Assembly: GCA_028280105.1 (NCBI GenBank)
Contig: JANQML010000217.1
Coordinates: forward strand, 1-46,436
Direction of reading: 5' to 3'
DNA: 46,436 nucleotides
DNA from: Desulfobacula sp.
GTDB taxonomy: Bacteria > Desulfobacterota > Desulfobacteria > Desulfobacterales > Desulfobacteraceae
The notes under the pieces are model-generated. The model had not been told where the DNA came from and did not search any database. It was given only the letters and a program-made list of their open reading frames with translations. The position numbers were made by a program, and so were the translations under genes. Shown one piece after another: positions 23,023 through 44,641 of the stretch (position 1 is its first letter; every line of letters begins with the position of its first letter).

Positions 23023-23655
23023 TCAATGATAATTTTTTGCCATTCCGAAAAAGAATCCAGCCTCCTGCCATTGCTGAACAACAACCCCGTTGACACGATA
23101 TTCTCTCTCCGGAAGCCGGCTGAGTTCATCGTTCAGTTCGGTCTGATAAAGGGTATAGTACTCACCATTTTCACCCAGCAGTTTATACTGGCAGGCAAGC
23201 TGGCCAAGGATGGAGCAATACCGGGCACCGACCAGCATGAGTCCGGCATCCTGAACACGCTTGGGCGGCAGCGGCTTGAAACCCAGGCGGTTCATTTGAG
23301 CGTATAGTTCGATATAATCCCGGGCCTTGAACTCCAGTGCCAGGCGCTTGTTGTGATTCAGGGCGATTTCCCTTGAGGCCAGTGCGGCCAGTTTGGAAGA
23401 GGATGTATACCTGGCTTCCCAAATATAGACACTCATGAAAACAACCACCAGGATAGATGCGGTCAGTGCCAGGCCCCGCCGCCGGAACCAATGGGGGCAG
23501 AATACGGATTTTAACCATTTAAAAATAATGTCACGTTTAAAAGGGCGCGGCTGGGAATTTTCGGCCAACTTCAATAAGGCCTCTAATTTACCCGGACGCA
23601 GTTGTTTCGTATGATAATAATCCTGAATCTGTTTATCAATTGATTGTTCTTTCAT
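23023..23655 (-). CDS. Single-span membrane protein, probable anti-sigma factor
   Basis: A 210-residue protein with an N-terminal cytoplasmic part (1-75), one membrane span near residues 80-100 (LALTASILVVVFMSVYIW) and a periplasmic C-terminal domain. Its start overlaps the end of the ECF sigma gene by 4 bp, the usual place for a cognate anti-sigma factor, and the topology fits. It lacks the HxxxCxxC zinc motif of the common ZAS family, so the assignment rests on context and topology. Two Cys in the periplasmic part (ARYCSILGQLACQ) might respond to redox. It would hold the sigma factor inactive at the membrane until a signal arrives. Confidence 0.6.
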   Translation of the reverse strand: MKEQSIDKQIQDYYHTKQLRPGKLEALLKLAENSQPRPFKRDIIFKWLKSVFCPHWFRRRGLALTASILVVVFMSVYIWEARYTSSSKLAALASREIALNHNKRLALEFKARDYIELYAQMNRLGFKPLPPKRVQDAGLMLVGARYCSILGQLACQYKLLGENGEYYTLYQTELNDELSRLPEREYRVNGVVVQQWQEAGFFFGMAKNYH

Positions 23656-24134
23656 GGCTTCACCTTCCGGACCTCGTATCCTAAAAAGCGACGAAGCTTT
23701 TGCTTTGACCGGTGAATCAAACTTAACACGCTGCCCCGGGACTGCTTCGTCCGTTTAGAGATTTCGCCTGCCGTATACCCTTCTACGACATACAGATACA
23801 AAGCTTCCCTCTCCACGGGTCGTAACTTAGCCAGTGCGTCTTCCAGATTCTCCTGATCAAAATGGGAACCGGCCGGGGAGAACGCCTGCCCCCCGGCCTC
23901 ATTCCTGAACTCATCAAGTGATACAAAAGAGACCAGGCGTTCTCTCCTGTTATGATTAAGAAACCGGGTCCGGATAGCGCTGAACAGATACCCTTTTTTG
24001 GGGGGACCGCCCGCCCGCAATACGGCAAGCCACGCTTCATGCAACAGATCTTCCGCCTGGGAAGGGTCATGTGTGAGCGATAAAGCATACCGATATCCGT
24101 GTTGTAGCAAATCGGCGAGCGGTTTAGATGACAT
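23652..24134 (-). CDS. ECF-type RNA polymerase sigma factor
   Basis: A 160-residue sigma-70-family factor of the ECF class. Region 2 is at about residues 8-70 (YRYALSLTHDPSQAEDLLHEAW, then FSAIRTRFLNHNRRE) and region 4 at about 98-150 (LRPVEREALYLYVVEGYTAGEISKRTKQSRGSVLSLIHRSKQKLRR). AAGGGA lies before the ATG, 23 bp after the stop of the rhodanese gene. Gene order permease, rhodanese, sigma, anti-sigma on one strand with overlaps or tiny gaps suggests a single operon that the sigma factor may control. The GCPPKKG-type linker is short. Target promoters were not identified. Confidence 0.88.
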   Translation of the reverse strand: MSSKPLADLLQHGYRYALSLTHDPSQAEDLLHEAWLAVLRAGGPPKKGYLFSAIRTRFLNHNRRERLVSFVSLDEFRNEAGGQAFSPAGSHFDQENLEDALAKLRPVEREALYLYVVEGYTAGEISKRTKQSRGSVLSLIHRSKQKLRRFLGYEVRKVKP

Positions 24135-24157: not shown

Positions 24158-24571
24158 TTACTTTTCTACTGTTGGAAATTTAGCCCGGGACCATTCCCGC
24201 CAACCGCCTAATAATGCATATACGTTTTTATACCCTTCTGATTTCAGTGTTCGTCCCAACCTGAGACTTGTGGCTTCATTCGGTCAGGCGCAATACAATA
24301 CCACCGTATTCTCTTTTGATGCGTAGATGGCATCGGCAGAAAATTTTTTCGGATCAATATACTTTGCGTTTTTAATTTTAAACTCTGAAGAACTCCAGTC
24401 CCTGCCCGAGCGAACATCAAGGATCGTGACCGTGTCCGTATCAATAATTTTTTTCAGGTCTTCCTTGCTCATGGTTTTGACTTCTGCAGCCATCAGGCTG
24501 GCGCCTGTCATGAATATGAATGAGATTATCATGATAATCCCAATCAATGATTTTGTTTTAAAACGTTTCAT
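24158..24571 (-). CDS. Periplasmic rhodanese-like protein, probable selenoprotein (UGA at codon 96)
   Basis: Read through the in-frame TGA at 24286-24284, the gene encodes 137 residues: a signal peptide (MKRFKTKSLIG, then IIMIISFIFM, cleavage near ASLMAA), then a single rhodanese domain with ILDVRSGRDWSSSEFKI and, after the active-site loop, YKNVYALLGGWREWSRAKFP. The loop reads VVLYCA-UGA-PNEATS. Homologues known to me, such as the rhodanese domain attached to DedA proteins, have C-x-C-P-N-E-A here, so the UGA stands at a Cys position. The frame beyond is intact for 41 codons and keeps family residues. A SECIS-like hairpin follows 21 nt later (24253-24267). The ATG overlaps the permease stop (ATGA). 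A nonsense mutation is the alternative. It would move sulfur or selenium, or act as a redox protein. Confidence 0.72.
24253..24267 (-). promoter_or_regulatory. SECIS-like hairpin in the rhodanese gene
   Basis: On the mRNA, GUCUC and GGGAC pair around the loop AGGUU, beginning 21 nt after the UGA. The loop resembles the AGGUCU loop of the E. coli fdhF SECIS and the loops of the two other UGA genes of this window. Confidence 0.6.
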
Positions 24572-25887
24572 AATTCTTCTTCCTTTAATTTGATGGTTTG
24601 TTGTTTCAATCTTATTGTCAACCACCCGATCAGGGTGATCCCAAATAAAATTGCTGAAAACGTTATCAATGCAATCGACTCATCGTTCGTAAGCACTAAC
24701 ATAATTATACCTGACAAAAATACCATGCCAGGAATAACATTTTTTATTATTTTTAAACTGTATTTCAAGCCATCATCAACAGACGCAGCTGTCACCCGCT
24801 TTAAATGAATCAAGGAGATCAGTGCGTAAAAGCTCAGCCAGAAAATCAATGCACCCCGGATAAGGATTTCAAGGACGGTATATCCGGCCAAACCGCCTGC
24901 CATTAAAACGGCAATACTGATTCCGATGACACCAATACCTGCAGTGGGGGCCACACGAGCCAAAGCGCTTGCTTCTCCTCCCGTTTCAATGATCCTTGCC
25001 AGTTGCATTTTAATACTTGTAAACAAGGCATGGACAGCCGCCAGCGTTCCGGCAATGACGATTACACCCATAATAATCCGCCCGGTATTTCCGAGAATTG
25101 ATCTTGAGACGATAATGTGAGAAATCGTTGTCTGTGACAACCGTTCCATGGGAACGAATTTCAATGCAACGATCCCCCAGGCGGCAATTAAAAGAAGAAC
25201 CAGCCCCACACTGACTGACAATTGAAGTTTGGTAGTCTCTTTTTTCCGGCCGAACACATTCATTCCCATGTCCAAACCGATGAATATCAATAGGGGAATA
25301 AATACCATACCGACCGGATTATTTGGGCTGAAAGCAATGCCGGAACCCGTCATCCGGGTTGCATCGGGCAGACTGAAAAATCCCGTGATGATAAGGATCA
25401 GCAACCCTGAAATAACGATGCCGACAAAAGATAACTGCAGGCGGATCATCGTATTTTGACTCAAAAACTGAAAGCCCGCCAGGATAAATAAAAGCAAAAA
25501 TGCAAAACCAAAATTGGGGAACCAATAGACAAAAACCTCGTTAAATATAAAACCCGAGGAGACCAGCATGCCGGTCGCCAGGAAAAGAACCGCGGCTATC
25601 TTTACAGTCAAAGAAAATATCATTAAAAAGGACTGCATGGATCTTTCCGGCTTACCGGTGCCCCGGCCTTGTTTTAAAACCGGGGAGAAGGTATCAACAT
25701 ACTGGGGCAGAAAGAGCAGATAGGCAAGCCCGGCAGCCGCCACCGCCAATATACCGATCATCCCGGTATTGCCGTAAAAACCGCCGGCCATCACCAGTGT
25801 ATCCGGAGACAGCATAATGCCTGCCCCGAACAGGAATGGGACAATGACCTGAATTTGGGAACGCGATGGGTTTGGTGAATTACTCAA
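24568..25887 (-). CDS. Polytopic membrane permease, APC-like
   Basis: A 439-residue, very hydrophobic protein with about 11-12 membrane spans. The first span with a glycine-rich break (VPFLFGAGIMLSPDTLVMAGG) is like TM1 of APC/LeuT-fold transporters, but the family was not pinned down. The start is TTG at 25887, preceded by AGGAGG. Its stop codon overlaps the start of the rhodanese gene, which ties transport to the rhodanese and then to the ECF sigma pair downstream. Import or export of a sulfur or selenium compound, or of an amino acid, would fit that context; nothing in the sequence decides it. Confidence 0.65.
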   Translation of the reverse strand: MSNSPNPSRSQIQVIVPFLFGAGIMLSPDTLVMAGGFYGNTGMIGILAVAAAGLAYLLFLPQYVDTFSPVLKQGRGTGKPERSMQSFLMIFSLTVKIAAVLFLATGMLVSSGFIFNEVFVYWFPNFGFAFLLLFILAGFQFLSQNTMIRLQLSFVGIVISGLLILIITGFFSLPDATRMTGSGIAFSPNNPVGMVFIPLLIFIGLDMGMNVFGRKKETTKLQLSVSVGLVLLLIAAWGIVALKFVPMERLSQTTISHIIVSRSILGNTGRIIMGVIVIAGTLAAVHALFTSIKMQLARIIETGGEASALARVAPTAGIGVIGISIAVLMAGGLAGYTVLEILIRGALIFWLSFYALISLIHLKRVTAASVDDGLKYSLKIIKNVIPGMVFLSGIIMLVLTNDESIALITFSAILFGITLIGWLTIRLKQQTIKLKEEEL

Positions 25888-38417: not shown

Positions 38418-38843
38418 TCAGGCCGCATCATTTTTTTTTACCGGTGTCGGTCCGAGAGCCGTTATCTTTTCAGCCATTTCATTGGCAATTTCGGCAAACC
38501 GGGCCCCTTGGGCGGAACTCAGATTATACATCTGCATCCGTTCCGGGTCGACGCCTATCTCCGTCAGCGTCCGCCGGACATATTCAACCTTTTTCCGGGC
38601 CTTAAGGTTTCCGGCGATATAATGGCATTCGCCTTCCAGGCAGCCGGCCACATAGACACCGTCTGCCCCGTCTTCAAAGGCATTGAGAAGATGAATAATG
38701 TCCACCCGTCCGGTACACGGTAACTGAATGATCTTTACATTTGCAGGATATGACAATCTCATGGAACCTGCCAGGTCCCCGGCTGCATACGCTCAATACT
38801 GGCAGCAAAAAGCAATGATCCTGGGTTCAAATTCTTGGGTCAT
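38418..38843 (-). CDS. mvhD: MvhD-type hydrogenase/Hdr delta subunit, selenoprotein (UGA at codon 17)
   Basis: Read through the TGA at 38795-38793, this gives a 141-residue MvhD/FrhD-family protein: TQEFEPRIIAFCCQY-U-AYAAGDLAG, then SYPANVKIIQLPCTGRVD and GVYVAGCLEGECHY. The Cys-rich N-terminus binds a 2Fe-2S cluster, and Sec in place of Cys at this site is known in the family. GGAGG precedes the ATG at 38843; starting at the methionine after the UGA (38762) would lose the cluster ligands. MvhD passes electrons between HdrA and its donors or acceptors. A SECIS-like hairpin lies 19 nt after the UGA. It is flanked by hdrA upstream and metV downstream. Confidence 0.93.
38763..38779 (-). promoter_or_regulatory. 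SECIS-like hairpin in mvhD
   Basis: On the mRNA GGGACC and GGUUCC pair (one G-U) around the loop UGGCA, which begins 19 nt after the UGA. Confidence 0.7.
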
Positions 38844-43345: not shown

Positions 43346-44641
43346 TTAAAGTCCCACTTCAGCCAGATCCGGCCCAAGATAGGTTCGTTCGGTTTCACTT
43401 AACATTCCCATGGCCAGGCAGATGATGGTCCACAGATGAACCACATGCCACCCGCCGCCGAATTGCTCGCCAATGTCTTCCACCTGTCCGTGGCAATTGT
43501 GGCAGGGGGCGATCACATAGGTGGCGCCGGTGGCTTTAAGCTGGTTGAATTTGGTTCGGCCGTATGCGCGACGGGCATCGGGAAATCCTGCCTGCAGGGC
43601 ACCGCCGCCGCCGCCGCAGCAGTAATTGTTTCCCCGGCTGGGTACGGTGTCGATAAAATTTTCCTCACCCACCACGGTTTTAATTACAAATCTTAAATCA
43701 TCCACAATTTTATTGGAACCGCTCTTCCTGCCGATATTACACGGGTCCTGAATGGTAAATTTTGCACCGATCTCTTTGTTCCAGTCGGAGTTGACATTCA
43801 GCTTACCTTCCCGGATCCACTGGGCATACAGCTCAATGATGGTGATCAGTTTAAATTTGTGGGGTATCTTAAATCTGCGCAACCCTTCCAGGATTGCAAA
43901 ATAGGAATGCCCTCACTCGGTGTTGACCACCAAAGGACTTTTCAAGTTATTGTCCACATGAAGTACAAACTCCTCGACAATATACTTCCATCCTTCCAGA
44001 TCAGCCATGAACATGCAGTAGTTTTCACCCGCCCACATAACGGACGGATAGGTCCAGTCCGCACCCACGGTATGGAGGATCTTCCATAGCGGCCCCATCT
44101 CTTCGGGTTCGGTCACCGGTTCCCTGGAGTTCTGATTGAGCACCATGGTGGCACCCACCCGGTCGACACTGACTTCAAGGTCTTCAAAACCGGGGTGTTC
44201 CTCTCTGATCTCTTCAGCCACATCCAGAACCGTAAATTCAAAATCCTCTTTCTGAGCCCCCATGGCACTTCCGGTCCGGATGTGCTGATCACAGGACCCC
44301 AATATCCCTTTGGGCCGTTTATCTCTCGGTACACTGGCCCTAAGATTAAATACCAGGGCCGGTATATTAATATTCATGGGACAGGCCGACACACACCGGG
44401 TACACATGCTGCACACCCATTTCCAGTCAGACTTCAGTACCTCGTCATCCATACCCAGATTCAACATCCGTACGAGCTTTCGGGGGTCCATATCCATCAG
44501 CTCCGAGGCTGCACACCCCCCTGTGCAGGTCCCGCAGGTCAAACATAAATCAAAATTCGCATCCGGTACTTTTCCCAACACCTCCTCTTTGAATTCAATA
44601 TCCAGTTCGTCAATATTTATCGCCTCTGCCATTTTAGACAT
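43346..44641 (-). CDS. hdrBC: HdrC-HdrB fusion, probable selenoprotein (UGA at codon 243)
   Basis: Two open frames, 44641-43916 and 43912-43346, are joined by one in-frame TGA at 43915-43913; read through they give 431 residues. The first 110 residues are HdrC (CLTCGTCTGGCAA and CSMCTRCVSACPM, two 4Fe-4S sites). The rest is HdrB-like with one clear CCG domain (DPCNIGRKSG...YCCGGGGGALQAG...APCHNCHGQ). The UGA sits in NTE-U-GHSYFAI, where CCG proteins usually have E-C-G-H, so Sec replaces a conserved Cys. A SECIS-like hairpin follows. HdrB carries the unusual Fe-S cluster that reduces a disulfide or similar acceptor. The ribosome site GGGAGGG is only 1 nt before the ATG at 44641, so the ATG at 44632 may be the true start. 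Confidence 0.88.
43879..43897 (-). promoter_or_regulatory. SECIS-like hairpin in hdrBC
   Basis: On the mRNA GCAAUCC and GGGUUGC pair over 7 bp (one G-U) around the loop UGGAA, which begins 22 nt after the UGA. Confidence 0.7.

Follow-up and report, generated by a model that had tools for sequence, protein, structure and literature searches.

Selenocysteine-containing (Sec-containing) rhodaneses are already known. In the available portion of a 2026 review (PMC13188914), the curated NCBIfam family NF041203 corresponds to ‘Rhodanese-like domain-containing protein form 3’, described as possessing a CxU motif and one Sec, and there the 2005 bSECISearch paper is cited for this form. The accessible text of a 2022 review (PMC9312934) lists a ‘COG0607 form 2 (CxU)’, the example accession being the same as that found in PMC13188914. 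A rhodanese-like domain also is among the 34 putative selenoproteins indicated, in the part of that paper at hand, for marine Deltaproteobacteria (PMC8318568), and a separate rhodanese-related family, COG2897, is listed in what could be seen of PMC1088965. Within the literature searched, i.e., open-access papers that were available in part, NF041203 appears as a catalogued, predicted selenoprotein only. Fusions between DedA and rhodanese domains, in turn, are noted in the available text of PMC10127716.

Considered here is a gene found within a 46,436-nt stretch of DNA from Desulfobacula sp., with that whole stretch described as the window. The gene is an added member of the above, already known and curated family. 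A first-pass annotation of the window had proposed an exported, single-domain Sec-rhodanese as something unusual. Such a protein is what is found, but as the family is both curated (NF041203) and listed in two reviews, it is less unusual than had been proposed. New instead are the pairing of family members with a transporter, forms with two selenocysteines (UxU), and fusions to cytochromes, none of which were found for NF041203 in the open-access literature searched, to the extent that those texts were available.

The Gene and Its Product

24158..24571, minus strand: Sec-rhodanese gene, 137 residues, Sec at residue 96, N-terminal export signal (approximately residues 1-29, as read by hand)
24284..24286, minus strand: UGA, by homology with aligned relatives decoded as selenocysteine 96

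The frame begins with the ATG at 24571, reaches a TGA (24286-24284) immediately following VVLYCA, and then continues in frame as PNEATSLRLGRTLKSEGYKNVYALLGGWREWSRAKFPTVEK up to the TAA at 24160-24158. Re-reading of the minus strand returned frame, UGA, and TAA at the positions originally given for them. The further suggestion that rhodanese features are retained beyond the UGA holds as well, since the Pfam Rhodanese domain (PF00581) matches residues 36-129 of the read-through protein (E 1.3e-13, 51.7 bits versus a cut-off of 22.2). That one domain constitutes the whole fold of the 137-residue product as modelled (mean pLDDT 90.9), and the solved structures which are closest to this model, upon structure search, are rhodaneses. 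The product scores 148.1 bits against NF041203 (rhodanese_LYCAU, ‘rhodanese-related (seleno)protein’; cut-off 115), with residues 15-137 spanning model positions 4-126, with the LYCAU motif shared, and with the C-x-U pair that is expected of this family present as Cys94 and Sec96. The N-terminal signal, as read by hand, points to a protein that is exported.

Openness of the frame was considered as evidence for Sec and was rejected: 267 of the 1956 TGAs found in the window, both strands, precede at least 41 open codons. As open frames following a TGA thus are common in this window, the case for Sec rests on relatives, that is, on homology. Over the 40 codons that follow the UGA, the window differs from 31 relatives 336, 400, and 668 times at codon positions 1, 2, and 3, respectively, a comparison that leaves out L023, the second gene of L023, L025, and L026. 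To judge from such differences, the post-UGA stretch is changing as protein-coding DNA does. Locus L023 carries two Sec-rhodanese genes in tandem.

The Sec Column among Relatives

Relatives were obtained from GTDB contigs (the best 80 of 156 encoding stretches) together with 58 genomes, i.e., the window's own plus those of 57 relatives, among which 11 of the 58 carry NF041203 over its cut-off. From the resulting 125 loci, 35 were picked by hand as a close set, including that of the window and supplying 36 rows as L023 represents two genes. The 34 relative loci all match at a tblastn E of 2e-15 or better, with L070 and L072 left out. Excluding the window's own row, the codon aligned with the window UGA is TGA in 34 of 35 rows and TGT (Cys) in the remaining one, L049. 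More distantly, all 55 aligned relatives (L070-L125 without L072) possess Cys at this column, a result that is partly one of selection since the peptide pattern used for fetching, YCACPNEA, contains that same Cys. The original claim that UGA here replaces Cys thus is upheld by the TGA of 34 of 35 rows, by L049, and by these 55 partly selected relatives. Random stops and frameshifts in the second half of the gene, which had been named as what would speak against Sec, are rare, with the post-UGA frame continuing in 34 of 35 close rows and only L026 breaking early, 21 codons on.

Locus L049 (169-573, Desulfatitalea) has TGT at the Sec codon and yet an intact SECIS-like hairpin, as if the TGT were a recent change or instead a sequencing difference. 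The rhodanese of genome G012 (L021), a genome of the same genus as the window, is identical to that of a contig of Desulfobacula sp. SM1_1_2 (L055).

A wider set consists of 83 family rows from 82 loci (L046-L069 plus loci fetched from genomes, with some matches not included), among which two proteins are each represented by two rows. At columns 94 and 96 these rows are C/U (64), U/U (10), C/C (3), C/S (3), C/T (1), and C/A (1), with one unreadable. The Ser, Thr, and Ala rows (three, one, and one; L179, L184, L185, L186, and L187) are family paralogues, and these five of 83 count against a strict requirement for Sec.

A SECIS-Like Hairpin

24253..24267, minus strand: SECIS-like hairpin GUCUC-AGGUU-GGGAC, stem 24267-24263 with 24257-24253, loop 24262-24258

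A hairpin with loop AGGUU had been placed as starting 21 nt after the UGA. The hairpin is present, but 21 nt is the distance to the start of the loop, whereas the 5-bp stem itself begins 16 nt on. In the available text of PMC13188914, a bacterial SECIS element is modelled as a loop of 3-9 nt upon a stem of 4-16 bp, with the loop 16-37 nt from the UGA, a G within the first two loop positions, and a free energy of no more than -7.5 kcal/mol. The geometry of the window hairpin (5-nt loop AGGUU, 5-bp stem, 21 nt) lies within the ranges given in that portion of the review, while its energy, -6.4 kcal/mol for a 49-nt stretch of the window, falls short of the limit given there. That folding energy also is not significant (z 0.62), and single-sequence folding consequently was set aside as evidence for SECIS. 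Scans of the window using Rfam, at gathering thresholds, and for tRNAs returned no match.

Evidence for the hairpin comes instead from comparison among relatives, for which 30 of the 36 close rows were used; the six left out (L049, L055, L060, L061, L064, and L066) keep the stem too, as judged by eye. Over those 30 sequences, pairing within the stem holds for 99.3% of 150 cells, with one failing. Shuffles were 95.5% paired, with none of 500 being as high as observed nor reaching the observed covariation score, and sliding of the stem partners reduces pairing to 22.7-50.7%. Two stem pairs are changed on both sides, a count reached by 22 of the 500 shuffles. The window itself has its own compensatory C-G where others carry G-C, five other sequences have C-G for U-A, and the second loop position is an invariant G.

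The Decoding Machinery and Other UGA Genes

38418..38843, minus strand: VhuD/MvhD-like gene with UGA (38795-38793) in CCQYU
43346..44641, minus strand: HmcF/TmcB/DsrK-like Fer4/cysteine-rich-domain gene with UGA (43915-43913) in NTEUGHS

The Sec machinery that had been predicted for this organism is found in full within the same assembly (98.25% complete, 6.51% contamination), that is, selB (367.8 bits), selA (606.5), selD (367.2), and tRNA-Sec, selC (75.9), all over cut-off, with selD possessing one in-frame TGA of its own. As to the two further UGA genes that had been indicated for the window, both exist and both match known families, but with scores under curated cut-offs, these being 156 bits versus 215 for the first (NF045873) and, at best, 171 bits versus 750 for the second. 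A Deltaproteobacteria selenoprotein operon consisting of frhA, hdrA, frhD, and a GlpC-like gene is described in the accessible part of PMC13188914.

By homology along with covariation, the UGA would be read as Sec by way of SelB and Sec-tRNA, as directed by the hairpin, and the window gene almost certainly is a genuine selenoprotein gene. That the UGA could instead be a true stop, with the gene a truncated remnant, might be suggested by the lack of significance of the hairpin as a single sequence, and by copies that carry TAA or break early (L147, L183, L026). That many genera retain the UGA, the frame, and a hairpin that covaries, and that the Sec machinery is complete, nevertheless leaves such a reading very improbable indeed.

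Cys94, Sec96, and the Rhodanese Loop

24290..24292, minus strand: Cys94 codon (TGC), at the column in which ordinary rhodaneses have their persulfide cysteine

Sec had been assigned to the active-site loop, and Sec96 does lie there, within a C-x-U pair. It is Cys94, however, rather than Sec96, with which the persulfide cysteine aligns. Thus, given 18 ordinary rhodaneses (from L027-L045, of related genomes) and 21 family members as aligned under three MAFFT modes, the loop cysteine of the ordinary rhodaneses falls on column 94 in 16 of 18 and on column 96 in none, with two of 18 having no letters there. Profile-profile alignment agrees, and in the structure model a strand (89-93) is followed directly by Cys94. 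Local alignments to solved structures place the cysteine of 6mxv domain 2, of 1qxn, and of the second YnjE domain on Cys94; the first YnjE domain is without cysteine at that point, and 6mxv domain 1 has its cysteine on residue 96. This last alignment would put Sec96 at the persulfide position, an assignment that was rejected as the MAFFT counts, 16 of 18 versus none, favour Cys94.

Residues D52, R54, C94, C/U96, P97, and E99 are invariant across 28 sequences, with P97 varying in the 83-row set. We take D52 and R54 to be residues which rhodaneses keep, and column 94 presumably is that of the persulfide carrier. Given this alignment of loop cysteines on column 94, the persulfide most likely would be formed on Cys94, with Sec96 as second redox residue of the C-x-U pair.

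A Predicted Transporter Partner

24568..25887, minus strand: partner membrane protein, 439 residues, predicted APC-superfamily fold; ATGA overlap between its stop and the start of the rhodanese gene

The rhodanese gene overlaps, by 4 nt, an upstream gene whose product had no match by sequence to Pfam, NCBIfam, or PDB, with only chance-level hits up to an E of 10. The partner is predicted to possess an APC-superfamily fold: its model (pLDDT 88.6, pTM 0.90) best matches AdiC, at a TM of 0.71, and KimA, ApcT, and LAT1 as well.

This transporter gene is found 5' of the rhodanese gene, on the same strand, at 28 of the 35 close loci, the window's own included, and 34 of the 83 family rows are transporter-linked. 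The pair is present as well at locus L068, from the cultured relative Desulfogranum mediterraneum DSM 13871. Among the 58 genomes, 11 of which have the rhodanese, all six with a strong transporter match (E < 1e-90) have an NF041203 gene adjacent. The same is true of all seven such genomes (E < 1e-70) among 247 from the phylum, of which 36 have the rhodanese. The window's genome is present in both samples, so that six plus seven represents 12 different genomes. Every strong match shares its contig and strand with the NF041203 gene next to it, though with approximately 0.65 kb between the two matches in G263; no strong copy of the transporter lacking an adjacent Sec-rhodanese was seen in the genomes searched (58 and 247). 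Chance values for this co-occurrence are 1.1e-5 (58 genomes) and 8.2e-7 (247), as calculated with genomes treated as independent despite their kinship, and the profile used, having been built from rhodanese-adjacent copies, favours such copies. Two of the six matches from the smaller sample run over one stop, their ORFs being 403 and 434 residues in length.

The converse of this pairing fails. That is, five of 11 and 29 of 36 rhodanese-possessing genomes have no strong transporter copy, and 30 of the 64 C-x-U rows have no transporter in available flanking DNA, some of these with little upstream sequence. Weak matches were obtained in G037 (4.4e-11, partial) and, at 3e-24 and 4e-22, for a second copy in G198 and for one in G104, respectively. 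The weak match of G104 (L173, G104:C228), a distant relative of the transporter, and a family rhodanese encoded on the opposite strand are separated by approximately 0.8 kb.

It could be that Sec96 binds a metal or metalloid, with the pair then serving as a detoxification device. D52 and R54, however, which rhodaneses presumably keep, are invariant here, and a scan of 20 window proteins brought out none recognisable as conferring metal resistance. Metal binding is, on the other hand, suggested for Sec in some other transporter-linked selenoproteins in the available text of PMC13188914. Overall we consider a role in metal detoxification to be quite improbable.

Downstream Neighbours

23652..24134, minus strand: ECF-type sigma factor, 23 nt downstream of the Sec-rhodanese gene

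After the Sec-rhodanese gene come, at 23023-24134 of the minus strand, the gene for this ECF sigma factor and one whose 210-residue product has no match in Pfam. The sigma factor possibly is on the same transcript as the Sec-rhodanese, and the 210-residue protein may be, though this is a guess, a putative anti-sigma factor to it. The window sigma factor is absent from the neighbour clusters that are common to at least three loci.

Among Desulfocapsa-like relatives, the gene following that of the Sec-rhodanese specifies a glucokinase, a DedA-type protein, or a pyridine nucleotide-disulfide oxidoreductase, as based on Pfam for members from L047, L048, and L062 only. The corresponding clusters, 4, 6, and 5, include L047, L048, L052, L056, L064, L065, and L066; L048, L060, and L066; and L062 plus others, respectively. 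As each is present in just four to seven loci, none was accepted as a conserved downstream neighbour. The DedA-type neighbour recalls the DedA-rhodanese fusions.

Double-Sec and Cytochrome-Fused Forms

In ten family rows, from nine genomes, the codon of column 94 also is UGA, giving rise to YUxU (L025, L146, L152, L153, L161, L166, L167, L170, L171, and L176). All ten display TGA-N3-TGA followed, 16 nt on, by the same kind of hairpin. None of the ten is transporter-linked, as assessed over 0.9-1.5 kb of upstream DNA, whereas all 34 transporter-linked rows are C/U. A single origin of UxU was not supported: within a family tree of 130 columns, in which 43 of the 84 inner branches lack resolution, starred branches join U/U rows with C/U rows (L161 with L150, L167 with L157). 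Since the U/U rows do not form one group in that tree, Cys and Sec would seem to have been exchanged at column 94 more than once.

Four of the 83 family rows are fused to a cytochrome with eight CxxCH motifs, these being L025 (352-1932, minus strand), L165, L170, and L171, of which three are U/U and one is C/U. There is no stop or further UGA between the two parts, and Pfam, as run on L025 alone, identifies Multi-haem_cyto. Locus L167 has a gene with seven CxxCH approximately 70 nt downstream, cut by the end of the locus. The existence, in other lineages, of fusions to an octahaem cytochrome suggests that the enzyme may exchange electrons with cytochromes.

These same four fusions, along with the 7-CxxCH neighbour in L167, might be read as indicating an enzyme that is mainly a periplasmic chalcogen reductase (of polysulfide, tetrathionate, selenite, or tellurite), supplied with electrons by multihaem cytochromes and with the transporter secondary. 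Consistent with that possibility is a Geobacter cluster of a rhodanese-like protein and multihaem cytochromes which the accessible portion of PMC5877670 links to the reduction of selenite and tellurite; by analogy, that cluster, so far as the same text describes it, may provide a loose precedent for the mechanism of the Sec-rhodanese. No ORF with at least three CxxCH is found, however, in the available DNA surrounding the 34 transporter-linked rhodaneses, and the chalcogen-reductase reading seems unlikely, though not so much so as metal detoxification.

A Possible Mechanism

The explanation that we prefer as a whole, and which we judge to be somewhat probable, is of a genuine Sec gene the product of which performs selenol/persulfide redox chemistry in the periplasm on behalf of either a transporter or a cytochrome. 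Cys94 would take up sulfane sulfur, or instead would attack an oxidised sulfur or selenium substrate. Sec96 then would resolve the Cys94 intermediate as a selenenylsulfide, which in turn would be reduced by a periplasmic donor. In the window lineage the working partner, going by the pairing, would be the APC-fold transporter, with the enzyme perhaps readying or clearing the cargo of that transporter, a small compound that would be sulfur-, selenium-, or amino-acid-like.

More tentatively, and here we would sooner bet against than for, the two could constitute a dedicated two-part system, that is, a transporter family with an adjacent Sec-rhodanese, acting upon a sulfur or selenium solute whose redox state in the periplasm is set by Cys94/Sec96, while sister lineages would couple the rhodanese with octahaem cytochromes, with UxU as a possible form. 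According to the available text of PMC13188914, prokaryotes have yet to yield any specific high-affinity system for selenium transport, and the substrate of this transporter for that reason is of interest. The family now offers three handles on its function: the transporter link, the octahaem cytochrome fusion, and the exchange of Cys with Sec at the persulfide position.

Comparison with Known Systems

Relative to the NF041203 family, the window protein itself shows no difference. GlpE, the Wolinella polysulfide-sulfur transferase, and other rhodaneses consisting of a single domain have the same fold and the same post-strand cysteine as the window protein; to our knowledge, these are without such a C-x-C or C-x-U pair. 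The partner shares its predicted fold with AdiC, KimA, ApcT, and LAT1, at a TM of approximately 0.65-0.72 on the query, but is just 12-15% or so identical to these and has no match to them as a sequence family.

The distant, Cys-containing relatives, as seen with 18 inspected ORFs, are 307-528 residues long with their rhodanese part late in the ORF, and both of the two that were checked by Pfam have a DedA (VTT) domain. Such DedA-rhodanese fusions, of Betaproteobacteria and others, differ from the window pair in being fused rather than separate, in possessing DedA rather than an APC fold, and in being 28-44% identical over the matched parts. They nonetheless have in their CACPNEA loop a Cys in place of Sec, and they are, like the window pair, rhodaneses coupled to a membrane protein.
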